64,000 bases of DNA, from NCBI GenBank assembly GCA_024275575.1, contig JAJRYV010000081.1, forward strand, positions 62,001-126,000, read 5' to 3'. This document shows positions 20,135 through 37,215 of this stretch, piece after piece. The notes under the pieces are model-generated. The model had not been told where the DNA came from. It saw only the letters and a program-made list of their open reading frames with translations, and ran no database searches. Every line of letters begins with the position of its first letter. The stretch's first letter is position 1. The position numbers and the translations under genes are program-made. The DNA is from a bacterium (GTDB lineage Bacteria; Zhuqueibacterota; Zhuqueibacteria; Zhuqueibacterales; Geothermadaptataceae).

Positions 20135-22738
20135 CTAACGGATCAAAAGCATTTTTTCTTTGGCAAAATAAACCTGTCGGGCGTTTTTTGTCACCCGCAA
20201 GAGGACAAAATAGGTGCCGCTGGCAACCGATTGTGCGTCCCAGGCGAGTTTATGACTGCCGGCGGGCATCACGGCAGAAAGCAGCGTCGCGACACGGCGG
20301 CCCTGCACATTGTAGATTTCGAGATGTACGGTTGCCTGTTCTTTGAGGTCAAACGGGATTGTCGTTTGCGGGTTAAACGGGTTTGGATAGTTCATTTTGA
20401 GTTGAAATTTATCCGGAACAGCCGTAAAACTTTCACCCACAGCGGATGGGTCTTTAACACTGATGAGAACATCGATATCGGAGCTGGCACCCTGCTGATC
20501 GGAGACGGTGAATGTCACCAGTTCGCTTCCCCGCCACTGGGAATTGAGTGGTGCGATGGTCGCTGTAAAACCGACAAAACCGATGAAAAAGTTTGTCGAA
20601 GGCCCTGCCGAAACACTGAGGGTTTCCATGGCATCGTCAATATCCGAGATATATGGTTTCAAATCGAGTGGCGCGAACGCTTCACCGGGGGGGGCCGCCT
20701 GCTCTTCAATTTGGCGAAAAACCGGTGCGTCATTCACCGCTGTAACGATGAAACTGGCGGATGCGCTGTCGGTATTGCCGGCGGGGTCGGTCGCTGTGAA
20801 CAGAATATTTTCTGCTCCGGCCCATTCCGAATCCGGCACCGCGATTGACGCTGTGCTATCACTGATGGAAACCAGCAGTGCGTGATTGCCTGTAAAACTC
20901 CAACTCAAATCGGAATTTGGGTAGTCCGGGTGGGTGACGAACTGATTGAGAATGATATCCTGAAATAAGCCACCCTCGGCAATCGTTTGGCTCGGGATTG
21001 CGCTGATAATGGGGCGCGAGTTGTTGACCAGAATAAGCACTTCGGACTGGGTCTCACCGCCATCGTCATCGATGACTTTTACCGCCACTTTATAGGAACC
21101 GCTATCAGCATAGGCTTTTGTCGCTTCTGCGCCGGGTGTTTCAAAAATGTCGTCGCCGTCGAGATCCCAGGAAAACTCGTGCGTGTCGAAAATACCGGCG
21201 TCAGAAACGCTGGCACGCAGAATCACCGGTTTATCTTTTATCGTGTGGTAGGGGCTGCCGGTGCTTAAAACCGGCAGGGCGTTGGTGATTGTTACGGTAT
21301 ATGTTTTTTTACCGAGAAGTCCATCGGTATCGATGACACCGAGGGTGATTTCGCCGGTGAAATCATCACCGAAAAAGCGTTTTGTCTGCGGCTGGCCTGA
21401 TGTTTCATCGAAAGTGCCGTCGTTATCCCAATCCCAACTATAGCTGACGATGGTTTTGCCATCCGGGGAGAAGGATGCTGATGCATCAAATTCAACGGAA
21501 TCGCCTTCAACAGCCGTATAAGGCCCGTTGGCAACAGCAGTCGGCGGGTATTCGAACTGGGCATTGCGGAAAAAAAGTTGACCATCGATAGGATAGACGA
21601 CGTAGAACATCGTTTGCCAGGCTTTTAATACTTCTTTTTCCCGCCCATCGGTGCGCCGGGTATCACCGGCAAGAGTTACATATTCAGACCATGTCACCCC
21701 GCCGTCGGAGGAATAACGCGATCGCAGATTAGTGGAATCCGCCTGATTATATGTCGCAACGACATATTGTCCATCATCAGAAGCGGCGACATTACCTTTC
21801 CCCAGGCTATGCTGCCATTCCCCGAGTTCAAATTTATCAGTGAGCACGATATCCCGCACTTGCTCGCCGTTTTCAAAACGAATGTAGCGTAGCGTCCGGT
21901 CGTTTTCCAGCGCTTTGTCTTTCGCAGCGCCGTAGACGATATGCACATTGCCGGATTGATCGGCAAAAATATCAGCATTGCCGTTGCGATCGACGGCGTC
22001 TTTGGAGTGGATATCGCCGGCTTTTTCCAGCGTCTCGCCGCCATCAAAGGAGCGCCAATAGGTCAATGGGCCGCCGGCAATGCCCTGATGGCTGCGATCG
22101 GGAGAGCACAGCAGAATATGTAAAACATCATCCTGGCTTATGGAGATTTCTAGGCGGTCATCAGCGCGGTAGCGGTCGAGATTTTCCTGTTTCCGCTGAA
22201 TGCGGCCATTGACGATTTTATAATAAGTGGCGCTGCCAAAAATATCATTATTACCGTCCGATTTTCCTGTCAACACATGCGCCACACCTTTGGAATCCAC
22301 GTCGATGCGTGCCAGATAGGCACGGTACTGCTTGTCGACAAGTTTTAATGATGGGCTCCAGTCACCGTTTTCCATTTTGTATGTATAAAAAATATCGAAA
22401 GTCCAGTTGCCGCGGTGGATGCGGAAAACCACATGCGGCCTTCCGGTTGCAGGATCAAAAGCAATCGAGGGGCCGAAATAAAAACCGCCCCAGCTTTTTT
22501 CGCCGCTTGCCCGTGGAATTTTTTCCGAGGAGAGCACAGTTCCCTGCGGCGATAGAACAGTATAAACCGAACCGCTGTTATTATAGATGAGGTGTATATT
22601 ACCGGTTGCCGGATCGATATCAAAATCCGGCGTCTCACCCGGTCCGAGATCGATGGCTTCACTCCACTCCTGCGCTGCGAGAGCTTGCAGGCTGGAGAAC
22701 ATCAAAATCAGCAGAAAACCCAGGATGCGTTTTTTCAT
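20135..22738 (-). CDS. Secreted BNR/PKD/cadherin-like protein with type A C-terminal sorting tail
   Basis: 867 residues from the ATG at 22738, which has GAGGA just upstream; a longer reading to 22780 lacks one. After a signal peptide there is a sialidase-like propeller of about 400 residues with repeated Asp-box-like pieces (YWRSFDGGETLEKAG, RYSSDGGVTWSEY). Two PKD domains follow (VANGPYTAVEGDSVEFDAS; SWDLDGDDIFETPG), then two Ig/cadherin-like domains that both carry the SEWAGAE/SQWRGSE pattern. The tail begins YPNPFNPQTTIPF and ends KMLLIR, a type IX-style sorting or FlgD-like domain. It is probably surface-exposed and may bind glycan or protein. It closely parallels its neighbour at 22850-27490. 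Confidence 0.85.
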   Translation of the reverse strand: MKKRILGFLLILMFSSLQALAAQEWSEAIDLGPGETPDFDIDPATGNIHLIYNNSGSVYTVLSPQGTVLSSEKIPRASGEKSWGGFYFGPSIAFDPATGRPHVVFRIHRGNWTFDIFYTYKMENGDWSPSLKLVDKQYRAYLARIDVDSKGVAHVLTGKSDGNNDIFGSATYYKIVNGRIQRKQENLDRYRADDRLEISISQDDVLHILLCSPDRSHQGIAGGPLTYWRSFDGGETLEKAGDIHSKDAVDRNGNADIFADQSGNVHIVYGAAKDKALENDRTLRYIRFENGEQVRDIVLTDKFELGEWQHSLGKGNVAASDDGQYVVATYNQADSTNLRSRYSSDGGVTWSEYVTLAGDTRRTDGREKEVLKAWQTMFYVVYPIDGQLFFRNAQFEYPPTAVANGPYTAVEGDSVEFDASASFSPDGKTIVSYSWDWDNDGTFDETSGQPQTKRFFGDDFTGEITLGVIDTDGLLGKKTYTVTITNALPVLSTGSPYHTIKDKPVILRASVSDAGIFDTHEFSWDLDGDDIFETPGAEATKAYADSGSYKVAVKVIDDDGGETQSEVLILVNNSRPIISAIPSQTIAEGGLFQDIILNQFVTHPDYPNSDLSWSFTGNHALLVSISDSTASIAVPDSEWAGAENILFTATDPAGNTDSASASFIVTAVNDAPVFRQIEEQAAPPGEAFAPLDLKPYISDIDDAMETLSVSAGPSTNFFIGFVGFTATIAPLNSQWRGSELVTFTVSDQQGASSDIDVLISVKDPSAVGESFTAVPDKFQLKMNYPNPFNPQTTIPFDLKEQATVHLEIYNVQGRRVATLLSAVMPAGSHKLAWDAQSVASGTYFVLLRVTKNARQVYFAKEKMLLIR

Positions 22739-22849
22739 TATTTTCCTCGACACGTTAATTAATAAATTCACTTTATTCATTGTTCAAAATTCCCTGAAAT
22801 TCAAGATTCCCTTCATCATGTGAGTTTATCAGAGTCCGTTTCATCTTTT

Positions 22850-25800
22850 TCAACGGATGAGCAACATCTTCCGGCGCGCCGAATAAACCAGTTTTTGACC
22901 ATGCATGATCTGGATTTGCAAGAGATATGTTCCGGTCGCAAAGCGCGTAGCGTCCCACAGTATTTTATGCCGCCCGGCCGGCATATATTTATTGACCAGC
23001 CGGTTCACTTCCCGGCCCGTAATATCGAAAATGATTATTTTTACCTCTCCGGCATCCTTCAGATCAAATGTAATTGTCGTTTGCGGGTTGAAGGGGTTGG
23101 GATAATTCTGTTGCAAGGCAAAACTCTGCGGTAACCGGCTGTCGCTTTCGGCAACGGCGGTAGTATTCTTTCCCGAAAAAACCACCGATACCGTGGCAGT
23201 CGCCGAATCGACATCAGTGATCGAGAAAATGACAGTATCCGCACCTACCCACTTTTCTTGCGGTTTGGAAATGGCGGCAACCAGGCCGGAGATGGTCACC
23301 GTGACCTGTGCATAACCCGAAGCGGAAAGGCTTAACTCTTCGAGTGTATTGTCAGCGTCGTGTACGAAATCTGCAAAATCGATGGCGGTAAAGTTTTCTC
23401 CGGCATCCACCTGCTGATTTTCGATAGTCTCGATGACTGGCACGTCATTTACCGGATTAACTGTAAAAATGACCGATGTCGTGTCTGCATAGCCTTCAGG
23501 GTCACTGCTGATGAATGAAATTTTTTCCGAACCGGCCCATTCTGAATCAGCCGCAGCGATAGCGAAGGAAAAAAGGCTCTTTTGCTGCTGCACCAAGATT
23601 TTCTGATTGCCAAAATAACTCCAGTTGAGCTCTTCAAAACCGTTGTCGCCGTCGCTGGTATAATTTTGCAAATCCAGATCAGCAAAAGGCTGATTTTCAT
23701 CCGTCACCTGCATTGGAATAGCTGAAAAAACCGGTGGTGTAAAATCGATGGAATTATGCCGCCGGATGTACTGTGGTTGCTGCCCTTCAATCACGGTTAA
23801 GCGCTGCCCGGCTGCCACATCGAATAATTTTGTCGTACCACCGGCAGGCCAGCGAATGATCAAGCTATCGGCGAAATCAGCCTGTGCCAAACCGAGGTGG
23901 AAAGGAACGATCGCACCGGAAACAAAACCTTCACCGGCGAGCATGATGCGTTTCTGACGCAGACCCGCGGCAAAACACTCGATCTCCGCCCCGATTGCAT
24001 CCCGGTTGCTGATCTGCCCCTGTGGTTTGATGACCAGCCAATTCGTTGGTCCTGCCAGGTTGTCCATCAGGACACTTTTCTGCCCTGAGTTCGAGTAGAA
24101 TACGTCAACATCACCATCGTGGTCAAAATCGGTGACACAGGAGCCATAACCGCTATCCCAGGTTTTAACACCGAAATCGCTCAACTTCGTAAATGTACCG
24201 TCCCCGTTATTCCTGAAAACTTTATCGGCGCCAAAATTGATAACGATCAAATCGAGCCAGCCGTCATTATCAAAATCGGCAAAATTGCAACCGGTAGAGC
24301 GATCGTTATCAGTCAAACCCGCCGCATTTGTAACGTTGGTAAAATAACCGCTGCCACTGTTTTGAAAAAGCGCGTTACTACCTGTTGCATTGGAAACGAA
24401 CAGATCAAAATCACCGTCGTTGTCATAATCTCCCACCGTGACACCCTGCCCGTGCATCGAGCTCATGCTGATGCCGCGTTCGTAGCCTTTTTCATAAAAA
24501 CGATTATTGCCGTTGTTGATGAACAGCAGGTTGGCGTTTTCTGTGCCGGTATCATCGTCGGTGCCGCGGGAGACAAAAATATCGAGATCGTCATCCCCAT
24601 CGGCGTCAAAAGCGACAGCGCCAACACAAAATTTTTTATAGCCAAAGTTGAAATTCGAAGTCTGATTAGAGAAGTAGTCATTCTCGTCCTGCAGGAAAAA
24701 ACGCATTTGATGGCTGAAATTGAACGATAACAAATCGAGCAAACCATCATTATTGAGATCAGCCCAGACCGCTGCCTGTGCCTGCCCGCGGTCATCGATA
24801 CCGTTTTTCCCGGAAATATTTTTAAAAGTATTATTGCCTTCATTGCGGAAAACCTTGCTATGACCGGCTACATTCAGATAAATATCGACAAAACCGTCAT
24901 TGTTAAAGTCTGCCGGTGAAATGCCGCGGTCAAACCAGTGGATATCGCCATAAACAGACCAATTCCCCGCCTGTTCGGAAAATGTGCCGTCCTCGTTGTT
25001 GATAAACAATGAATTGATGGTGTCGTAATTGGCGATGTACAAATCGGTGAAACCATCGTTATTGAAATCGGCACCGGCAACGCCATGCCCCCAGCCCAGA
25101 TCGCCTGGCGGCGCCTGCGCTTGCGCTGCAGAGGCAATATTGGCGAACCTGATCGATCCCTGCACTACAGTACTACCGGCATCTGTCGTAAATTCGAAAC
25201 GCTGCGAAATGGCCTTGTTGCCGTTTACATCTGCAGAAAACACCCGGAAAGTATAATTGGTCGCGCTTTGCAGGCCAAACAACAAGACACGATGCTGCAA
25301 AACATGGCTTGTATCCAGCGGCACAAATGTACCCATAGCGGCTGTGCTGCCATATTCAACCTGCGAGTTTGCCGCTTCATCCGTTTGCCACAAAATCATC
25401 GTCGAATGGGAAGTGATTTCAGACGCAGTAACCTGCGTTATTTCAGGATAAGAATTATCCGGTTGTTTGGTGCGGAATGAAAATACCGCGGAAGAAGATT
25501 CATTTCCCGAGCTGTTTTTCGAAAAAACACGATAAAAATAATCGCTGTCCGGTTGTAAATTTTGCAGAATAATGGCGTGGCTGGTGTCGAAAACGGTCGT
25601 GCGCACACTTGATGAATCGAGATTTGCAGTCAGACCGTAACGCACGAGGGCGTCTGCCGGCTGGTGTGTTTTCCAGCGCACCGTTGCCGTTGCGGTGTCG
25701 ATATCTGCAACTTCGAGCGCTGAAATGACGGGTGATCCAGCGCTGACCAAAACCCGTGCCTCGACGGAGTGTGTTCCGCCGTCGTCATCGCTGACGGACA

Positions 25801-27490
25801 CAGCGATAATCTGCTCACCGACACTTGAAAACTTCGCCTTGATTGTTGATCCGGCGATTTCAAACTGGCCATCATTGTCCAAATCCCAGGAAAACTGCAG
25901 GGAATCATCACTGCCGGCGTCAGTTGCCGTGGCGGAGAGCAGGGTCGGTACATATTGAAATGCAGCGAAAATACTGTCAACTTTGATCACTGGGTTGACA
26001 TTGGCGACATCAACCTGAAATGTGCTTTGTCCGGAAAAACCTTCATTATCGACCACCTGCAAAGTGGCGAGACCGGAAAAATCATCGCTATAAGTGTGTT
26101 CTGCTTTTGCTGAATCCGATTCGAAATCAAAAGTGCCGTCGCCGTCCCAATCCCAGCGATAATTGACAATTTGCCCGTCGGCATCCGTCGAAGCGGAGGC
26201 ATCAAACTGAATCGGTGTGCCCTCAAATCCTGAATATGGGCCGGCGGCATCGGCCACCGGTGATTCACCAAGAGTAATTCTGCGCATTTGAATCGACGAA
26301 CCGGAAGGATAAACGATAAAAAAGCTGTTTTTCCATGAGCGTGCGACCTGCTTGTTGCGCCCTTCAGATTTCCGCGAACTGCCACCGATGCCTTCGGGCT
26401 CCGACCATGTTGCGCCGCCGTCTTTCGATACGCGGTAGCGAATGGGGCCCGTGTCGCTTTTGCGGTACGACATCAGTAAATGGGTGCCGTCGTCGCTGGC
26501 CGCTATCGAGCCGATGCCCAGGGAATGATGCCAGGGATCAAGCTCGCCGCCTGCATTCACCGCCACATCGCGAACACGGTGGCCATTTTCATAACGGGCA
26601 TAGCGGATACTGGAATTATTGCCGAGAGATTTGTCTGATTTTGAGCCATAGGCGATATGGGCGACGCCGTTTTGATCGACAAAAATATCAGCATTGCCGT
26701 TGCGTTTGGTGGCGTCGCTGTGGTGAATATCACCGGTCAGGCGCATTGATTCACCGCCGTCGTAGGAACGATAATAGGTGATGGCGCCACCGTAGGCCGG
26801 GTTTGTTTTTTCCAGCGGATAGCTCAAAACGAGATGCACATCATTGTTGGGGCCACAGGCGAGCTCAACGTGATCGTCTGTTCGGTACTGATTGAGGTTA
26901 CCGATTTTCTTTTCAATATTGCCCTCAGCATCAACACGGAGATAAGTCGCCGGGCCGTCCGTACCACCTGACGGCTTTCCCGAACCATGAACGATATGTG
27001 CTTTTCCGGCTGCGTCGATATCCATGCGTACGGCATAAGCACGGCGGACATTACTGACAATTTTTTTTGCAGCGCTCCAATTCCCATCGCTAAAACGACG
27101 CGTGATGTATATATCATAAAAGTCGTCATGCGTATTAATACGATAACAAACCCGAGGTTCTCCGGTAGTCGGATCGACCGCAACCGTAGCGCCAAACTTC
27201 CAGCCGATAGCATCGCTGTCGGCATTGGAGCCGGGAACGATCTCCTGCAGCAGTATCTCACCGTTCGGATTCATTTTCGTATATTTCACACCACCCCGGT
27301 GTTGCACGATGTGCAGCATACCGTTTTGTTGATCGATATCGAGATCAGGAACGCCTCCGGTTCCGACATCAAAAGTCTCGCTTAAAGTTTGTGCATGAGA
27401 AAAAGATGAAAAAAGAAAAACCAGCAGAATCAGTGTCAGTTGCAGTGCGTGTCCAACGTGAGACATTTGTATTATTTTTCGACAAGACAA
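22850..27490 (-). CDS. Giant secreted protein: BNR propeller, PKD, FN3-like, FG-GAP/ASPIC, cadherin-like, sorting tail
   Basis: 1546 residues. The order is: signal peptide ending SHAQ; a sialidase-like propeller matching the neighbour (YYRSYDGGESMRLTG); two PKD domains; two FN3-like domains (TATVRWKTHQPADALVRYG and TMILWQTDEAANSQVEYG); a seven-fold FG-GAP/VCBS region with DFNNDGFTDLY-type calcium loops; an ASPIC/UnbV domain (SNRDAIGAEIECFA...FHLGLAQ); two cadherin-like domains; and the YPNPFNPQTT tail ending KMLLIR. The start is a TTG at 27490 with AGGAG 9 bases upstream; an ATG at 27466 has no ribosome site but would also give a signal peptide. The FN3 plus FG-GAP/ASPIC block (about 620 residues) is what this protein has beyond its neighbour. 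Confidence 0.87.
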   Translation of the reverse strand: MSCRKIIQMSHVGHALQLTLILLVFLFSSFSHAQTLSETFDVGTGGVPDLDIDQQNGMLHIVQHRGGVKYTKMNPNGEILLQEIVPGSNADSDAIGWKFGATVAVDPTTGEPRVCYRINTHDDFYDIYITRRFSDGNWSAAKKIVSNVRRAYAVRMDIDAAGKAHIVHGSGKPSGGTDGPATYLRVDAEGNIEKKIGNLNQYRTDDHVELACGPNNDVHLVLSYPLEKTNPAYGGAITYYRSYDGGESMRLTGDIHHSDATKRNGNADIFVDQNGVAHIAYGSKSDKSLGNNSSIRYARYENGHRVRDVAVNAGGELDPWHHSLGIGSIAASDDGTHLLMSYRKSDTGPIRYRVSKDGGATWSEPEGIGGSSRKSEGRNKQVARSWKNSFFIVYPSGSSIQMRRITLGESPVADAAGPYSGFEGTPIQFDASASTDADGQIVNYRWDWDGDGTFDFESDSAKAEHTYSDDFSGLATLQVVDNEGFSGQSTFQVDVANVNPVIKVDSIFAAFQYVPTLLSATATDAGSDDSLQFSWDLDNDGQFEIAGSTIKAKFSSVGEQIIAVSVSDDDGGTHSVEARVLVSAGSPVISALEVADIDTATATVRWKTHQPADALVRYGLTANLDSSSVRTTVFDTSHAIILQNLQPDSDYFYRVFSKNSSGNESSSAVFSFRTKQPDNSYPEITQVTASEITSHSTMILWQTDEAANSQVEYGSTAAMGTFVPLDTSHVLQHRVLLFGLQSATNYTFRVFSADVNGNKAISQRFEFTTDAGSTVVQGSIRFANIASAAQAQAPPGDLGWGHGVAGADFNNDGFTDLYIANYDTINSLFINNEDGTFSEQAGNWSVYGDIHWFDRGISPADFNNDGFVDIYLNVAGHSKVFRNEGNNTFKNISGKNGIDDRGQAQAAVWADLNNDGLLDLLSFNFSHQMRFFLQDENDYFSNQTSNFNFGYKKFCVGAVAFDADGDDDLDIFVSRGTDDDTGTENANLLFINNGNNRFYEKGYERGISMSSMHGQGVTVGDYDNDGDFDLFVSNATGSNALFQNSGSGYFTNVTNAAGLTDNDRSTGCNFADFDNDGWLDLIVINFGADKVFRNNGDGTFTKLSDFGVKTWDSGYGSCVTDFDHDGDVDVFYSNSGQKSVLMDNLAGPTNWLVIKPQGQISNRDAIGAEIECFAAGLRQKRIMLAGEGFVSGAIVPFHLGLAQADFADSLIIRWPAGGTTKLFDVAAGQRLTVIEGQQPQYIRRHNSIDFTPPVFSAIPMQVTDENQPFADLDLQNYTSDGDNGFEELNWSYFGNQKILVQQQKSLFSFAIAAADSEWAGSEKISFISSDPEGYADTTSVIFTVNPVNDVPVIETIENQQVDAGENFTAIDFADFVHDADNTLEELSLSASGYAQVTVTISGLVAAISKPQEKWVGADTVIFSITDVDSATATVSVVFSGKNTTAVAESDSRLPQSFALQQNYPNPFNPQTTITFDLKDAGEVKIIIFDITGREVNRLVNKYMPAGRHKILWDATRFATGTYLLQIQIMHGQKLVYSARRKMLLIR

Positions 27491-28196: not shown

Positions 28197-28865
28197 ATGG
28201 CAAGTTCCTATAAAAAACTTTCCAATACTCGACTGATTCAATTATGCCAACAAGACCCCATCGATGAAATGGCATGGACTGAATTTTATCATCGTTTTCA
28301 CAAGACGATTGCAAGATTCATTTTCAAATGGAACCGGCAGTATAAACAACATCACCTGCCTGATGATTTTACCAGCTATCTGCATGATCTTTCACAGACG
28401 ATCATGCTGAAACTCAGCAGTGATAATCGCCGTGCTCTCAAAGCATTCCGCAATGAAAATAATGATTCTATTTATGCCTATCTGGCAAAGATGGCAAAAT
28501 ATACAGTCATCAATTATTCCAAGCATTATTCAGCAGCAAAGCGCAATGCCCCGACGGTTTCTCTGTTTGAGCCGCTCTCCATCGCAAATGATAAAGAACA
28601 CTTGGAGCTCATCGATCTGCTGGCTTCGCCAACGAATAGTCTGGAAAAGGAACGGCAATATCAGGAAAAAATCGAAGAACTGCGGGAAAAAATAAGAAAA
28701 CAGAAAAAAAACAAGTATTGGAAACGCGATCTCATCATTTTCGAACTGGCTTTTGTACACGAACTCAAAGCGCATGAAATAGCAGCGATCATCTCTTTAG
28801 AGATTTCTGAAAAGAGGATTGCCAACCGTATTACCGAACTGAAAAAATTGTTTAATAAATTATGA
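28197..28865 (+). CDS. Sigma-70 family (ECF-like) RNA polymerase sigma factor
   Basis: A 222-residue protein with the layout of an ECF sigma factor. Region 2 covers about residues 27-120 (AWTEFYHRFHKTIARF, DLSQTIMLKL, SIYAYLAKMAKYTVINY), a charged linker follows, and region 4 is near the C-terminus with the helix-turn-helix HELKAHEIAAIISLEISEKRIANRITELKKL. It would direct RNA polymerase to a small regulon. The following gene encodes a membrane-anchored protein and probably works with it. The ribosome site is weak (GAGAGG about 13 bases upstream). Sequence divergence from classic ECFs leaves some doubt. Confidence 0.75.
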   Translation: MASSYKKLSNTRLIQLCQQDPIDEMAWTEFYHRFHKTIARFIFKWNRQYKQHHLPDDFTSYLHDLSQTIMLKLSSDNRRALKAFRNENNDSIYAYLAKMAKYTVINYSKHYSAAKRNAPTVSLFEPLSIANDKEHLELIDLLASPTNSLEKERQYQEKIEELREKIRKQKKNKYWKRDLIIFELAFVHELKAHEIAAIISLEISEKRIANRITELKKLFNKL

Positions 28866-29045
28866 CACGTTTTTTAGTTTGGGAAATTAGCACCAAAATT
28901 TTGTCTTTAATACGTACAATTCGGAATTCAATTTTACTTAAAAGCGTCAACAGGGATAGTGTACAATTTACAGGATTTGTGATTCACAAATGATGACGAG
29001 AGATTTTATCTAATGATGAATCGCTCACCCGTTCAGGAAAGAAAA

Positions 29046-30011
29046 ATGGACCCCAAGCATAATAAGCAGCAAAACAAAACAGAAGACCTGAAGCAATTAA
29101 TCGCATATATAACAGGTGAAATCTCACCTGACGACGCCAATGATATCGAAAACAAACTCATACATAATCCTGAGTATTTAAAATCGTTAAGCTCGATAAT
29201 CAAGGATGAGGAATGCCAGTTGTCTGCAGCGGAAGAAGCTGAGTTTGCAGCCATGTACAAGGCACCCAAAAAGCAAGATCGCGAAACCTTTATACGAGCG
29301 GTGCTGCAAAATAGTGAACCGCCGGCCACAACCATTCGAAGAAAACTGCCGCGATTCGCCTTTGCAAAAGCAACCTGGATTTTCGCTATCGCCCTCCTCT
29401 TTGTCTTATTATTAACCCCCACTATAGTCAAATATCTACCTGACAACAATCAATTCTGCCACACATTTTTTTACGAAGCACTGCAAAATGACGCGCTTTT
29501 CTATTCCATCGATGCAAATGGGGTAGCGGATTCACCGTCAATATTGCGGGGTCCTGAAGCGGAAATCACGCAACAAATCATTTTTATGAAAAATCAGTTT
29601 ATGGTTGGTTTAGGTTATTTTCTCGACGGGAAATACAACACCGCCGGCGACCATATGAATTTTCTGCTGCAAAAACAGAAATACAGGGATGATCTCAACC
29701 AAACAACCGGCGGGCAAAAGCTCCTCAGCGATATTTATTGTTTGCACGCGCTTTCCCGTTTAAGCCTGGCACTCGATCTGAGGGATGACAGCGAGTTGTA
29801 CAAACAAAACCTCACGGCGGCTATCAGCGCCTTACAAACCGCACGGGATTATGCAAACGAAAAGCTGCCGCAGAATTCCGGCAAAGAGCTCTATTTTCTC
29901 GGCCTCGCCTATAAACTTAACGACGACGATATTTCCGCACAAGAAACCCTTTCACAAATTTCTCCGGAACAAACTTATTATAAAAAATCAAACGAAATTC
30001 TGACCCGTTGA
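29046..30011 (+). CDS. Single-pass membrane protein, probable anti-sigma partner
   Basis: A 321-residue protein. The N-terminal part is cytoplasmic and charged (DLKQLIAYITGEISPDDANDIENKL), like the start of zinc-free anti-sigma factors; one membrane helix (WIFAIALLFVLLLTPTIV) follows at about residues 94-113, and the periplasmic part is helical and TPR-like (LGLAYKLNDDDISAQETLSQI). I start at 29046 because AGGAAAG lies 4 bases upstream; an earlier ATG at 29013 has no such site. It lies 180 bp after the sigma factor gene on the same strand, and a terminator follows at once. The role as anti-sigma is inferred from position and layout. Confidence 0.7.
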   Translation: MDPKHNKQQNKTEDLKQLIAYITGEISPDDANDIENKLIHNPEYLKSLSSIIKDEECQLSAAEEAEFAAMYKAPKKQDRETFIRAVLQNSEPPATTIRRKLPRFAFAKATWIFAIALLFVLLLTPTIVKYLPDNNQFCHTFFYEALQNDALFYSIDANGVADSPSILRGPEAEITQQIIFMKNQFMVGLGYFLDGKYNTAGDHMNFLLQKQKYRDDLNQTTGGQKLLSDIYCLHALSRLSLALDLRDDSELYKQNLTAAISALQTARDYANEKLPQNSGKELYFLGLAYKLNDDDISAQETLSQISPEQTYYKKSNEILTR

Positions 30012-31069: not shown

Positions 31070-32803
31070 TCAGAAGGAATTGGTCAGTCTGACGTGGACC
31101 TTGCCCTGTGAAAGGCCGTCGCCGCGACCGAGGCCGTAATCCAGTCCCACAATGCCCAGGCGGGTTTCCATGCGCACGCCTAATCCAACGCTGCCAAGCG
31201 TCTGCTCGAAAATGCCTGTAGTTTTTTTCTGATAAACATAACCGGCGTCGTAAAAAATGAAAGCACGACTGCGTGACGCCAATAAATAGCGATACTCCAG
31301 ATTGAGCCAGGCGATGCGCTGGCCCCGGAATTGTTCCTCGCGATAGCCGCGCAGGGAACGGGCGCCGCCAAGCCGGTACTGATCGGCAAAATCAATCCGG
31401 ATTTCATCGCTGGTGATATGTCGCCAATGCATGGCGGCATGAAACACCTGAAAGCGCCGGAGCGGCAAAGCCCAGCGCACATCAACAGATAATTTTTGTT
31501 GCCGGAATCGGCTCACCGCATCTTTTCGCACCGATTCGATCATCGTCGCGTAAAACACCCCACGACGTGGATTATATTGATCATCCATCGTATCGACCTG
31601 CAAACCGAATCCTGCTGCAATGGCCGTACTTTTTTCAATATTAAAAATGGTTTGCCCCGCCAAATCGGGATTGATGCTCTTGCGCCACAACCTGCCGGTA
31701 AAATGAAGAATCCGGCGTAGGGGCAAATCTGCTTCCAGATTAAACCGGCGCTCAACGTAGAGTGTATCCTGGATGAGCTGCTCGAATCCGCCGCTGACAT
31801 GCAGTGGAAGCTTGAAAATCCACGGCTCGCGGTAATGAAGCGCCAGTTCCTGCGCATCGCGGTTGCGTTTTTCCCAGCGTGCAGAAATTTGTCGCCCGCT
31901 ACCCAAAAGGTTGCCAAATCGCAGATCGATGATGCCGGTCAGATATCCTGACCGACCGTCACTTCCCGGATTATAGCCGGCCACACCATTAAACGCATTG
32001 GTATTGCCTTCGCGGACGTCGATTTGCAGCAGAGCTTTTTCATTCTCATAAAACAATTGCGGTTTGCCAACTGTTGAAAAAATACCGAGTCGGTTGAGAT
32101 TATCCTGTGCGGTTTTAATCCGCGATGCCCGGTAGATATCACCTTTTTTCAGCCCAAGCTGTCGCCGGATCACTCTTTCCTTGGTCAACGTATTACCGCT
32201 GATGCCAATGGAATCGAGACGAATGAGCGGGCCGGGTTCGATCAGCAATCCGGCGCTTATCTCTGTTTCCCACGAATTCAGCCGGGCCAGGCGCAAGCTG
32301 TCAAAAACGAGCTGGGCAAAAGGATAGCCGTTTTCAGCAAAATCGGCGAGAAATTCCGGCAATTCGGTGACAAGATGATTGATCGGTATCGTGTCCGAAA
32401 ATCGCTTGCGCCAGGCTTTTTGCAGGTTTTGCGGCATCGATCCGGGACGTACATGCATGTCGGCAAATCGTACTCCTGTATCGATAAATATAAACCAGCG
32501 CTGGGCCGGTGTCGCCCTTTTTTCAAGAGTATCGATAGTGGCAAAATAATAGCCCTGCTGGGTAAACCATGTTAAAATTTTCTGTGCCAACTCCGCTGCC
32601 GGGTCCGTCGTTTTTGCCTCGCGCATTTTCATGCCCAAAGCCCGTAGCAAATTCACGACGCTGCCGCCGTTTTTCAGACGGATATCGACGGTGATCGCTC
32701 CCGAATCGGCTGGCACCAATCCCATACCGCTGCCCATCGCCGGGCACAAAAGCAAAAAACTGGCGCTAAAAAGCAAAACGAAAATATATCTTTTATCCTT
32801 CAA
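31070..32803 (-). CDS. Omp85-family outer-membrane protein (TamA/BamA-like)
   Basis: A 577-residue exported protein. Residues about 30-280 form POTRA-like repeats (the clearest being RLDSIGISGNTLTKERVI...RIKTAQDNLNRLGIF), and the rest is a 16-strand-type barrel with the Omp85 lid-lock motif SLRGYREE (near residue 482) and an aromatic end (NSF). Such proteins fold barrels or move proteins across the outer membrane. Its length and few POTRAs set it apart from the housekeeping BamA, which suggests a dedicated role. It starts 17 bp after the SprA-like gene, so both are in one operon. Confidence 0.86.
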   Translation of the reverse strand: MKDKRYIFVLLFSASFLLLCPAMGSGMGLVPADSGAITVDIRLKNGGSVVNLLRALGMKMREAKTTDPAAELAQKILTWFTQQGYYFATIDTLEKRATPAQRWFIFIDTGVRFADMHVRPGSMPQNLQKAWRKRFSDTIPINHLVTELPEFLADFAENGYPFAQLVFDSLRLARLNSWETEISAGLLIEPGPLIRLDSIGISGNTLTKERVIRRQLGLKKGDIYRASRIKTAQDNLNRLGIFSTVGKPQLFYENEKALLQIDVREGNTNAFNGVAGYNPGSDGRSGYLTGIIDLRFGNLLGSGRQISARWEKRNRDAQELALHYREPWIFKLPLHVSGGFEQLIQDTLYVERRFNLEADLPLRRILHFTGRLWRKSINPDLAGQTIFNIEKSTAIAAGFGLQVDTMDDQYNPRRGVFYATMIESVRKDAVSRFRQQKLSVDVRWALPLRRFQVFHAAMHWRHITSDEIRIDFADQYRLGGARSLRGYREEQFRGQRIAWLNLEYRYLLASRSRAFIFYDAGYVYQKKTTGIFEQTLGSVGLGVRMETRLGIVGLDYGLGRGDGLSQGKVHVRLTNSF

Positions 32804-32820
32804 ACTTTCAACCCTCTCAC

Positions 32821-35800
32821 CTAAAAATATGCCCGTAGCTCAACTTTTGCCAGATGGATCGTGCTCTCGCGCTGCGGCTCTTGCCTGCCCTGATAGCTCA
32901 CCGAAGTATTGAGATTTGTCGACATGCGGTATTCAAAAGCAATATTCCAGCGGAACGATTTGCCCAGCCGGTTTCCCTGCGCCAGTTCGTAAGGAATAAT
33001 GCGTGAGCTTTCATTGGCGCTCACATCCGTCAATTCGAAATCGGCGCGCAGGCGGCCGCGACCGTGGAAAGAATATGTTGTGCGTGGTTTAAAAGTCAAT
33101 TGCTGCACTTTTGTCGCCGGCGAATAGGCTTTATCGATATCGCTGCCGAATACCGAACGCAATGCCAGTTCAAATTGATTTTTCGGGCGAAATGATAAAT
33201 CCGCGATGAAACGCAAACCACGGATGAAGCGATCCGGCCGTGAATCACGGGCAAAGGTTTTATCTTCGATGCTGCGAATGATTTCGAAACGGCCGCTGAG
33301 TTTGCGTGCAGGATTGATGTTCAAACGCCATTCATGGCGAATTTGCCATCGTTTCTGCTCATCGTTGAGAAATTGATTATTGATGTTTTTACTGGAAATC
33401 AGCCGGTAGCGCAAAGAAAAATCCCGTCGTTTGCCGAAAAGAGTGATATCCTGCCGCAATTCCATGGCGCCGAAAAGGGTGGTTGCAGGTTTTTGAAATT
33501 GGGCCAAATTAAGCAAATAAATCTGCCGAACATCGGTTTCCTGCGTTTTTTCGTCGATGCGCAAAAAAGTCTCGCTGCCGATATTGCGCAGAATTTTCGT
33601 TAGAAACGACCTCTTTTTTTTCTTCCGGCCAAAGGCCTTGTGTGGATCGAAACGAATATTGAACCGGCTTTTCAGCTCAACGACGGGAATAAACTCATCC
33701 GTCGGCAGCAGGCGTAAAATATAATCGCCGAATGGATCGGAGATATATTCATCGAGGGTGGCTTCGTAGCGGTAATTTCCTTCGCCGTCTTTTACTTTAA
33801 AATAAACACGTTCCTGTCTGCCTACTTGCGTATTGCTGATGCGGTACTGCGCATCGAGCCGCAGCGCCTTACGCCAATGGTTACTGCCAATTTTGATTTC
33901 CGCCAGATTGGTTCGGCTGTCCGGTGTGCTTTCGGCGGCATAATTGCGGCGACGGTGGATATAGGAAGCGGAAAAATGAAAACGGCGGATATTTTTGCTG
34001 GCGAGATTAAAACGGCTCGTTTTTGCCACACTCAAACGTTGGAAAGCGCCGGCGAAGCGATCGTCGTCTTCACGCTGTGCAAACTGAATTTCAGCAGTTA
34101 GTTTATTCAATTTTACTAATCCGAGGCCGGCAATCAGTTCGGTAAAACGGAAACCGGAACGCAGACTATCGGCCAATGGCTGTTCTTTTTTAACTTCATT
34201 TTCAAAAGCAAACATGGGCTGCAGAAAACCAAAGCGACGGCGAATATCGCCTTTTTGCCGCAGCCAGTCATTTGCCTCCGTCCTTTTTGTTTCGGTTTTT
34301 TTGATACGTTCAACACGATAATCAAGCTCGACAAAACGTGGCGTACGCCAATTTGTGCTGGCGGTGATTTTTTTAGATTTAAGGCCGTATCCCGGTTTTT
34401 CGAGCAAGCCGGCAGTGGCAAAAAACTGCACCGAGGGAACCGGCGCATACTGCAATTGAGTTTCGCTTATGATTTCGTCGCCGCCACGGCCTGCGGTGTT
34501 TATATCCCACCGACGTCTAAATTCAATTTCATCGGCACGGTCGATATCGCGATATTTTTTGGCGCGGAAGCGGCGTTTTATCTGCAAACTGCCTTTGCCC
34601 AGGTTCCAGCCTCTTAGTTTCATGCTTTCCGGAGCGGCCTGCAGAGTTAAATAATAGGCGTGACCGTTGTTGTCTTCATCATCTTTTGCCGAATAAAGAT
34701 TCTCATCGAGATTGCTCAACGCCCATTCAGCGCTGATTTTCACCGTCTTTGCTGCCTGAAAATCCAGCCGTATATCAGCGATATCGTGTTTCCGCGCCCG
34801 TGGTAATAATACAACCGGCGCATATCGTCCCGCACCTGCCCCGACGAAAATATAGTTGCCGAATCCCTGATAGTTATAGCTGCCCTCTCCCGGACCGAGA
34901 TCGCTAAAACGAACCTGATAATCGCCGGAATTGATTCCCACAAACACGTAGACCGAATCCTGCAAAACATAACTGCCTTTATCTGCCCCGACGAAAGCAG
35001 CCCCTTCGACCAAAGCGCGGCTATCACCCGCGTTTCGCAAAGCCGCGCGGATGTCTTCTGTTAGCGACAGACCCAGCGGGTTGCCTGCGTCATCTTTTTC
35101 GCGCAAGAGTGTGGTTCGTAATTGCAATTTATCGGATAAAAGCCGGGTGCCGGCCTGCAGGCCGTACAGGCTACGCTGAAATTGTTCATCAGAATATTGA
35201 AAATCGACGATGATGCGGGAATCCGCGGTGATGAGCCTTTTGCGGGTAAACAGGATTTCACCGTTGCCGTATTCCATCACATAATCATTGTTTTCGCCGC
35301 GCACCATGGGGGTGCCATCGAGCCAGACGCGCTCGGTGCCGGCAAGTACCAGAATGTCGATTTGTCCGCGATCGCCAGTGAGTTGGTACGGCCCCTGGTT
35401 CCCTTCGATGCCCTGAAATCTTTGAGTGCGATATTTGCCTTTTGAAACCGCGCCGGAAAGCGTGATGCGGCTCTTTTCTCCGGGGAAAACCGTGGCCATG
35501 GCGCCCTGAAGTTTGCGCTGATATCGGGTAAATTCCGTGCCGGCAAAGTTGAGTTCATAATCCCCCAGCGTGGTTTCAAACTGCTTTGATTTAAGCTGGA
35601 TAAAAACCTTGTCGATCTCCTGCAGCGTTTGTGTATTGCCTTCCGGCTGAATGGGTGTGTTTTGATCCGTCAATGCAGCGACCAGCTCGACGCCGGGCGC
35701 CACTTCGCCGTTGACCTGTAAACGTAACCCCGAATCCACTTTCAACCCCTGATTCGAACCGAGAGAGAGGCCACGCACCAGACTGCCGCTTTTGCGCAAG

Positions 35801-36258
35801 TCAGCGGTATAACCTTCTGATGCATGTGCAATCTGCGGCAGTAGAGCCGGGCTGTGGGGGCGGTTGGTTTGCAGAGAATCATTTTTTCCCCGGGGAATCA
35901 GCAAGCGGTAAGTTTTGTTCAGCGGCAGCAGCAGGCGTTGATAAGCGATAAAAATAGAATCACCTGTTTGAAATTGTAAATCAGGAAAAAGAAGCTGTGA
36001 ATGCAAATAATCGAGCTGGTAATCGCGAAAGCGCTGTAAATGTCTGCCGTGTAATGCGACACTGTCGCTACCAGCGATGATAAATGAATCCGGCAGGGCG
36101 ATGCTGTGGGCTGAATCTGAAAAAACGTGATAAAATGAAACCTGAAAATTATTTTTCGGTGGGGAAATTACCTGAGCATTGGAAACTGAAATTCCAAAAA
36201 GCAGCAAGGAAGATGCAACGTGTATAAAGGGGTGATTTTTTTTTACGAAACTGATCAC
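32821..36258 (-). CDS. Giant SprA-like outer-membrane beta-barrel protein
   Basis: A 1145-residue exported protein ending in an aromatic residue (RAYF), with long alternating beta-strand segments over most of its length. A block at residues about 155-245 (RKSGSLVRGLSLGSNQGL, then VAALTDQNTPIQPEG, then DKVFIQL and TTLGDYELNF) resembles the conserved segment of SprA, the type IX secretion barrel, and related proteins in Bacteroidota and Chlorobi. SprA proper is about twice as long, so this is a relative and not necessarily the translocon. It sits between an NHL-propeller gene (30 bp upstream) and an Omp85 gene (17 bp downstream). Confidence 0.72.
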   Translation of the reverse strand: MISFVKKNHPFIHVASSLLLFGISVSNAQVISPPKNNFQVSFYHVFSDSAHSIALPDSFIIAGSDSVALHGRHLQRFRDYQLDYLHSQLLFPDLQFQTGDSIFIAYQRLLLPLNKTYRLLIPRGKNDSLQTNRPHSPALLPQIAHASEGYTADLRKSGSLVRGLSLGSNQGLKVDSGLRLQVNGEVAPGVELVAALTDQNTPIQPEGNTQTLQEIDKVFIQLKSKQFETTLGDYELNFAGTEFTRYQRKLQGAMATVFPGEKSRITLSGAVSKGKYRTQRFQGIEGNQGPYQLTGDRGQIDILVLAGTERVWLDGTPMVRGENNDYVMEYGNGEILFTRKRLITADSRIIVDFQYSDEQFQRSLYGLQAGTRLLSDKLQLRTTLLREKDDAGNPLGLSLTEDIRAALRNAGDSRALVEGAAFVGADKGSYVLQDSVYVFVGINSGDYQVRFSDLGPGEGSYNYQGFGNYIFVGAGAGRYAPVVLLPRARKHDIADIRLDFQAAKTVKISAEWALSNLDENLYSAKDDEDNNGHAYYLTLQAAPESMKLRGWNLGKGSLQIKRRFRAKKYRDIDRADEIEFRRRWDINTAGRGGDEIISETQLQYAPVPSVQFFATAGLLEKPGYGLKSKKITASTNWRTPRFVELDYRVERIKKTETKRTEANDWLRQKGDIRRRFGFLQPMFAFENEVKKEQPLADSLRSGFRFTELIAGLGLVKLNKLTAEIQFAQREDDDRFAGAFQRLSVAKTSRFNLASKNIRRFHFSASYIHRRRNYAAESTPDSRTNLAEIKIGSNHWRKALRLDAQYRISNTQVGRQERVYFKVKDGEGNYRYEATLDEYISDPFGDYILRLLPTDEFIPVVELKSRFNIRFDPHKAFGRKKKKRSFLTKILRNIGSETFLRIDEKTQETDVRQIYLLNLAQFQKPATTLFGAMELRQDITLFGKRRDFSLRYRLISSKNINNQFLNDEQKRWQIRHEWRLNINPARKLSGRFEIIRSIEDKTFARDSRPDRFIRGLRFIADLSFRPKNQFELALRSVFGSDIDKAYSPATKVQQLTFKPRTTYSFHGRGRLRADFELTDVSANESSRIIPYELAQGNRLGKSFRWNIAFEYRMSTNLNTSVSYQGRQEPQRESTIHLAKVELRAYF

Positions 36259-36288
36259 ACTGGGATTACTCTTTTCCTGAATTTGAAA

Positions 36289-37215
36289 TCATTGGTCGTC
36301 CGTTGTCACAGTATACACATCGATTCGCCGGTTGGTATCGTTTAAGATGTATAAACGGTTCTTACTGGTACACAAATCCGTGATTCGTTGCATGCTGCTT
36401 TTTTCCGCTGCCGGGAGAGGATTAAAATGAAAACGCAATGCGCCGTTTGTTGCTGCGATCGTGATTGAATTATTCTGGCCGTCTAACAGAAAAATGTGCT
36501 TTCCCAGGCAAGCAATAGTGACCGGGTTGGACAGAAATTGAAATTCAAATGCCTGCAAAAAGTTCCCGTAGTAATCGAATTTCATGATACTCTTGCGTTG
36601 CTGATCAGCGACGAATATTTCATTATCATCGCTGATGCACAGGGCGACCGGCTCTTCAAGTTGCCCGGCGCCTTCGTCAAAATCACCGAAAGTCAAGGTG
36701 ACATTGCCCTGTTCATCGAATTGCATGATACGGTTGAGCTCCGTTTCGATAATGAATAAATCTCCAAAATTTGCCCAGGCAAGAGCCACGGGAAAGGAAA
36801 ACTGATCACTTGCCGGCTCGATTTCTTCTCCGATGATGGCGGTGACAAAATTCAAATTGCGATCGAAGCGTTGAATGCGGGAGTTATTATAATCGGCGAC
36901 AAAAACATCGAGAGAGTTCTCAGCCCAGATATCCCGCGGCTGGTCGAATTGCTCCTTTTCCCAGCCGAAACCACCGACTTCCTTTAATAAAATGCCGGCG
37001 CTATCGCAGAGCAAAACACGGTTCAATCCGCTATCGATTAAATAAATTTTATTCTCCGAACTGACTGATAGCCCCTGCATCAGTGAAGCGGTTTCGGGAT
37101 ATAAACGTGAAATATCAATTTGATGGTGAAATTTGACCTGTAAATCCTGTCCGGGAAGTGGTGTAAATAAATTGGTGATGATAATTTGAGTGAAAATCAG
37201 CATTGTTTTGCGCAT
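36289..37215 (-). CDS. Exported NHL-repeat beta-propeller protein
   Basis: A 308-residue protein with a signal peptide (to about residue 22) and six NHL-type repeats, for example the pieces ADYNNSRIQRFDRNL and ADQQRKSIMKFDYYG. NHL propellers are binding platforms; no catalytic motif is seen. It is the first gene of the three-gene outer-membrane operon and would work in the periplasm or at the cell surface. The frr terminator lies upstream, so the operon has its own promoter. Confidence 0.82.
   Translation of the reverse strand: MRKTMLIFTQIIITNLFTPLPGQDLQVKFHHQIDISRLYPETASLMQGLSVSSENKIYLIDSGLNRVLLCDSAGILLKEVGGFGWEKEQFDQPRDIWAENSLDVFVADYNNSRIQRFDRNLNFVTAIIGEEIEPASDQFSFPVALAWANFGDLFIIETELNRIMQFDEQGNVTLTFGDFDEGAGQLEEPVALCISDDNEIFVADQQRKSIMKFDYYGNFLQAFEFQFLSNPVTIACLGKHIFLLDGQNNSITIAATNGALRFHFNPLPAAEKSSMQRITDLCTSKNRLYILNDTNRRIDVYTVTTDDQ

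Follow-up and report, generated by a model that had tools for sequence, protein, structure and literature searches.

An operon for a candidate second SprA-superfamily barrel, an NHL propeller and an Omp85 protein in FCB bacteria

The type IX translocon SprA/Sov is commonly regarded as a giant barrel that stands alone. It is represented by the NCBIfam family TIGR04189 and by the PDB entries 6h3i, 6h3j and 8gl8, and measures ~2000-2700 aa with large inserts. The barrel itself is built from 36 strands (PMC10994853). Other described systems of relevance are BamA and TamA, where POTRA units are combined with a 16-strand Omp85 barrel, and BamB of the BAM complex, a secreted beta-propeller that accompanies an Omp85 protein. 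A propeller in a type IX setting is also found in PorZ, a beta-propeller protein of the type IX attachment complex.

The operon described here lies in the window, by which the whole stretch of 64,000 nucleotides that was analysed is meant. It comprises three intact ORFs on the minus strand in the order NHL propeller, barrel and Omp85 protein. An earlier note on this DNA had claimed three packed minus-strand genes with 30 and 17 bp between them, and the ORF listing confirms both the gaps and the coordinates:

36289-37215, minus strand: NHL propeller gene, 308 aa (ORF listing)
32821-36258, minus strand: barrel gene, 1145 aa, GTG start (ORF listing)
31070-32803, minus strand: Omp85 gene, 577 aa, TTG start (ORF listing)

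The operon is preceded by rpsB-tsf-pyrH-frr on the same strand (gene names by reading of the ORFs). The idea that its Omp85 gene marks the old bamA locus, after rpsB-tsf-pyrH-frr, was dropped: by reading, the genes that come downstream in relatives resemble those for UbiA, Dtd and Maf, not skp/lpx. A possible divergent sigma factor is encoded at 28197-28865 (+; Sigma70_r2 at E=0.1 only), followed at 29013-30011 (+) by a gene whose membrane-protein product matches nothing in Pfam. In L031, a relative of the same genus, these two genes are likewise found next to the operon.

The 1145-aa barrel protein matches no Pfam or NCBIfam family at cut-off. Against TIGR04189 it scores 19.2 bits (cut-off 200) over residues 304-387 only, which leaves it outside the SprA family proper; the same profile also matches 10 of 19 relatives (best E 2.6e-7). 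The barrel is much shorter than SprA, which measures ~1960-2360 aa in the same genomes, and is devoid of SprA's long inserts, including long stretches between the matched segments given below. When a profile of 78 barrels is compared by hhalign with one of 20 SprA proteins from the same genomes, a probability of 96.8 is obtained, against ~1% for the Omp85 control. This signal comes mostly from one small domain (residues 303-357), of which a related copy is found ahead of the barrel:

35920..36126, minus strand: first SprA-type small domain, residues ~45-113, ahead of the barrel (hhalign: E=5.7e-12 against the second copy, E=2.5e-11 against SprA)
35188..35352, minus strand: second SprA-type domain, residues 303-357, between barrel strands (hhalign to SprA 632-684)

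The match of residues 303-357 to SprA 632-684 reaches a score of 72.7 with a decoy maximum of 24.2. With the small domain left out, three further segments still exceed the best of their decoys (41 per segment, reversed or block-shuffled): residues ~166-284 align with SprA ~212-326 (34.6 vs 24.8), ~502-623 with SprA ~763-897 (44.1 vs 26.0) and ~944-1081 with SprA ~1944-2070 (33.7 vs 27.1). All four segments follow the same order along the barrel and SprA. The SprA-like segment that the earlier note had pointed out is thus recovered at residues 303-357 (E ~3e-10), together with three more collinear segments above decoys. Since the ordered segments beat all decoys even without the small domain, we conclude from these profiles that the barrel is a full-length but distant SprA homologue, any single non-domain segment being weak when taken alone. 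By collinear profile homology along its chain, it is placed in the SprA superfamily in the broad sense. Against PDB sequences the barrel profile gives chance matches only.

The small SprA-type domain (35188-35352) also resembles the phage tail families DUF2460 and TIGR02217, the latter of which matches 12 of 19 relatives. This suggests that phage tails and SprA-type barrels share a small beta domain. A third type of protein is encoded at L048:5563-9756 (-), where a chain of 1397 aa combines a propeller-like N-terminal part (by reading), a SprA-type domain and a barrel-like C-terminal part; the gene adjoins MoxR-ATPase and DUF362 genes. A 912-aa fragment of the same type is found at L049:1-2739 (+). 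In light of this third type, the superfamily may be larger, with SprA as just one of its members.

The AlphaFold2 model of the barrel (pLDDT 87.9, pTM 0.77) contains 39 strands of at least 8 residues (DSSP) and suggests a barrel of roughly 36-38 strands, the strands being assigned by reading of the model DSSP. In a Foldseek search of the PDB, the four leading matches all belong to SprA, with E-values from 9e-11 to 1e-9 and TM values of ~0.25-0.28, which are weak in absolute terms, and other large barrels come next at 5e-9. The fold search thus supports rather than proves the relationship with SprA. Like SprA, the protein would form a giant single-chain barrel of ~36 strands, and the two are found in the same phyla and together in nearly every genome. 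The following parts can be distinguished:

32824..35802, minus strand: predicted transmembrane barrel, residues 153-1145, with C-terminal Phe (model strands)
35605..35673, minus strand: loop at residues 196-218, nearly invariant (LTDQNTPIQPEGNTQTLQEIDKV; alignment of 78 sequences with invariant columns)
34804..35016, minus strand: Gly/Tyr-rich repeat insert with G-x-Y motifs, residues 415-485 (family alignments; short strands in the model)

According to the conservation profile, residues 151-360 are the best-conserved stretch of the barrel. They include the loop 196-218, part of which is of low confidence in the model (pLDDT below 50 at 200-207). This loop, nearly invariant and partly disordered in the model, is read as a putative contact site. 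The Gly/Tyr-rich insert 415-485 is conserved within the barrel family.

Two roles that are already filled in this genome were rejected for the barrel. It is not the genome's SprA, the translocon of the type IX secretion system (T9SS), as a full SprA sits at G000:C52:119140-124461 (945 bits in frame). It is not a substitute for LptD either, a separate LptD_2 protein being found in the window's genome and in 7 others (8/8). Unlike SprA, the barrel is accompanied by NHL and Omp85 genes, in a genome where genuine SprA is also present. The same genome yields 131 Por_Secre_tail matches, two of which lie in the window:

20135-22780 and 22850-27490, minus strand: two type IX-tailed genes (Por_Secre_tail 3.5e-8 and 5e-8, Pfam)

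Both encode secreted proteins with PKD domains and type IX sorting tails, one of them also with FG-GAP and ASPIC/UnbV repeats. The earlier note was right about these tails (Pfam E=3.5e-8 and 5e-8); the tailed proteins are explained by the ordinary type IX system of the genome, whose full-length SprA is encoded elsewhere.

The third gene product is an Omp85-superfamily member by its Pfam matches (Omp85 domain 5e-21, POTRA 9.5e-12). In its AlphaFold model (pLDDT 88.4), three POTRA-like units (37-265) are followed by a 16-strand barrel (270-576), and Foldseek relates this model to BamA and TamA. Profile and model thereby bear out the Omp85 protein with few POTRAs that had been proposed. POTRA units and the 16-strand barrel are shared with BamA and TamA, and the number of three POTRAs is that of TamA. 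The protein nevertheless stays below the cut-offs of both equivalogs, with 130.9 bits against 297.15 for BamA (TIGR03303) and 31.8 bits against 625 for TamA (NF047950). Genome G000 contains ~13 Omp85-domain proteins over the Pfam cut-off. The operon protein is distinct from the canonical BamA-like protein among them (G000:C77, 804-aa frame), and in 93% of bootstrap trees the Omp85 proteins of the operon cluster separately from seven others encoded in this genome, long branches leaving their precise position uncertain. Based on the canonical protein elsewhere and the separate clade, the operon protein was rejected as the BamA of this genome.

The propeller belongs to the NHL-repeat family (E=4.7e-12; 45.7 bits, Pfam cut-off 20). 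Its N-terminus carries a signal-like segment, without a lipobox in this copy; repeats and signal together fit the exported propeller of the earlier reading. Like BamB, it is a secreted beta-propeller linked to an Omp85 protein. Unlike BamB, it has NHL-type repeats, and genetically it is tied most closely and most deeply to the giant barrel, not to the Omp85 protein. A type IX C-terminal tail was not found on it in the Pfam search, which would set it apart from PorZ.

Among 60 relatives, sampled as far out as the window's class, 53 have a barrel orthologue; of the 39 good genomes, 38 have one, nearly always as a single copy. At least 568 barrel relatives were confirmed in GTDB genomes by an alignment-based profile scan of contigs. 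The best 80 of these are labelled KSB1, Calditrichota, Zixibacteria, Marinimicrobia, Gemmatimonadota, Latescibacterota, Ignavibacteria and Bacteroidota, labels that are taken from the submitters' record titles and may be unreliable. Among the matches listed, genomes labelled KSB1 or Calditrichota come closest to the window. When GTDB contigs were scanned with a single-sequence pattern, no relative was confirmed, and plasmid records contained none.

Relatives of the same class retain the order NHL, barrel, Omp85, although the outer genes change. As this holds for most relatives, the operon order is not due to chance. Counting only loci with enough flank, the NHL gene lies upstream of the barrel in 16/19 KSB1, 11/12 unlabelled, 8/9 Calditrichota, 2/2 Zixibacteria and 2/2 Marinimicrobia loci, in the single loci labelled Gemmatimonadota (1/1) and Latescibacterota (1/1), and in 0/12 of Ignavibacteria. 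The Omp85 gene follows the barrel in 16/18 KSB1, 8/10 unlabelled, 2/7 Calditrichota, 2/2 Zixibacteria, 2/2 Marinimicrobia, 1/1 Gemmatimonadota-labelled and 0/10 Ignavibacteria loci; no Latescibacterota locus was long enough for this count. Calditrichota thus mostly contain NHL and barrel, and most Bacteroidota the barrel only, without linked Omp85 and usually without NHL. The NHL and barrel genes overlap by 4 bp in nine loci, as expected for coupled translation, and they are adjacent in two Bacteroidota genomes. From this Bacteroidota pair and the linkage counts, it follows that the pairing of NHL and barrel is the older one, with Omp85 as the partner that varies more. Being unlinked in Bacteroidota, the Omp85 partner would be dispensable in places, or replaced there by the general BAM. 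In two flavobacterial-type genomes, the barrel gene directly follows a gene for an aspartate kinase.

In the KSB1 loci L104 and L073, the barrel has unrelated genes instead of NHL and Omp85 neighbours. In G049 (L044:7648-11051), the barrel gene is split into consecutive ORFs of 598 and 490 aa by a frameshift or an assembly error.

Profile similarity to SprA and conservation of the neighbourhood had been set beforehand as tests, and both hold. The order NHL-barrel-Omp85 was found in KSB1, Zixibacteria and Marinimicrobia and not in Ignavibacteria and most other Bacteroidota. The dedicated unit of the earlier note therefore survives as a set of genes that are deeply conserved and linked in several phyla, with a putative role in assembly or secretion, and fails as an obligatory trio. 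Its statement that this is not a described system still stands: no curated family covers the barrel, and neither a paper naming it nor a description of any SprA paralogue was found in a literature search that left out subscription journals and preprints.

SprA scores over its cut-off in 40/40 named FCB genomes that contain the barrel. The relation was counted in 296 genomes sampled from the phylum to which an Ignavibacteria genome belongs, Bacteroidota in GTDB. Barrel and SprA occur together in 174 of them, the barrel alone in 1, SprA alone in 54 and neither in 67. Only strong barrel matches were counted, nine weak ones (E 5e-5 to 9e-4) being treated as cross-matches to SprA; the association has a Fisher p of 1.6e-31 when shared ancestry is ignored. 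The barrel is found without SprA in 1/175 genomes, and SprA without the barrel in 54/228. The two distributions are nested, in that losses of the barrel leave SprA in place and almost no loss of SprA leaves the barrel. The barrel would thus belong to the type IX setting without being part of the core, and would be dispensable to the type IX system.

The single exception, G366, is a genome (3.34-Mb contig) that appears to be SprA-free, with an intact barrel of 1162 aa (L165:7719-11207) and one weak type IX tail match. Its assignment as a Chlorobi genome was rejected, as the class sample shares genomes with high SprA scores; it looks like a member of Bacteroidia.

Across 20 genomes, the distances of barrel and SprA correlate (Mantel r 0.86, 0/2000 permutations) and their mean divergence is equal, as expected if both are old and vertically inherited. 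Since both are present throughout the FCB phyla sampled, the split of the barrel from SprA probably predates these phyla.

Several other explanations have to be weighed against this background. If the likeness to SprA were confined to a small widespread beta domain, the barrel itself would be unrelated to SprA. It is true that HMMER finds only the small domain and that this same domain matches phage tail families; yet the three additional segments, in the same order and above all decoys without the domain, and the leading place of SprA in the fold search make this explanation decidedly improbable. Given true homology, the barrel might be a further full type IX translocon, powered by the GldLM motor, that exports tailed substrates of its own class. 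Such a role would agree with the SprA homology, the size of the barrel and the co-occurrence with SprA. However, the barrel is without most of SprA's extra sequence, among it the long stretches that separate the matched segments; neither a PorV/PorP-like nor a motor gene was found beside it; and T9SS genomes manage without it, so that a true second translocon is quite unlikely.

The machine could alternatively be the Omp85 protein, at work in an assembly complex with a BamB-like propeller and with the giant barrel as main client or as a structural subunit. The BamA/TamA-like Omp85 protein with its TamA-like POTRA number and its own clade, encoded in one operon with the propeller, is compatible with this. 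But it is the barrel that is constant and the Omp85 gene that varies, with Calditrichota and Bacteroidota barrels lacking a linked Omp85, and the genome already contains a canonical BamA-like Omp85 and ~11 more; we regard this arrangement as very unlikely. A more serious contender, though still on the unlikely side, is a housekeeping or porin-like protein of the FCB group, kin to SprA, that passes lipids, polysaccharides or nutrients and exports no protein. Its co-occurrence with SprA would then reflect shared loss in host-adapted, reduced lineages. The barrel of SprA-free G366, its absence from 54 SprA genomes and the Bacteroidota barrels standing alone amid unrelated housekeeping genes speak for such a protein; the SprA homology, the strongly nested distribution (174 to 1) and the separate LptD that already serves LPS export in 8/8 genomes speak against it.

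We give an even chance to the operon encoding an outer-membrane complex around a compact second SprA-superfamily barrel. In this complex, the 1145-aa barrel would be an ancient paralogue of SprA, the translocon of type IX secretion, and would have kept a similar strand number and the small domain. The adjacent three-POTRA Omp85 protein would most likely be a dedicated insertase or assembly factor for the giant barrel. As for the propeller, it would most likely partner the barrel in the periplasm and scaffold or close (gate) it on that side. The complex as a whole would most likely be a wide pore for export or surface assembly, a job that is favoured because of the homology with SprA; the neighbor genes do not indicate its substrate. 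It would serve cells that already run a type IX system, outside the type IX core. Against the complex as proposed stand the low TM values (~0.25-0.28), the fact that the strongest match is one small domain shared with phage tail families, the G366 barrel without SprA, the 54 SprA genomes without barrel and the unlinked Omp85 in Bacteroidota. More tentatively, and rather unlikely in this specific form, the barrel might be a second SprA-type translocon of the FCB group that split off before the phyla, has its own insertase and periplasmic propeller, and moves a separate class of proteins to the surface.

From the SprA homology and the nested co-occurrence, the barrel would so far be an ancient second barrel of the SprA superfamily, nested in the type IX world and dispensable to type IX. 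A compact SprA relative is conserved as tightly as SprA itself (equal mean divergence, 20 genomes) across the superphylum, including flavobacterial-type genomes, which were recognised by SprA score and neighbours only. The barrel offers a minimal form in which the evolution and insertion of SprA-type barrels can be studied. It also poses the question of what role a SprA-like pore plays in cells that already have SprA, for which it is a clear genetic target.
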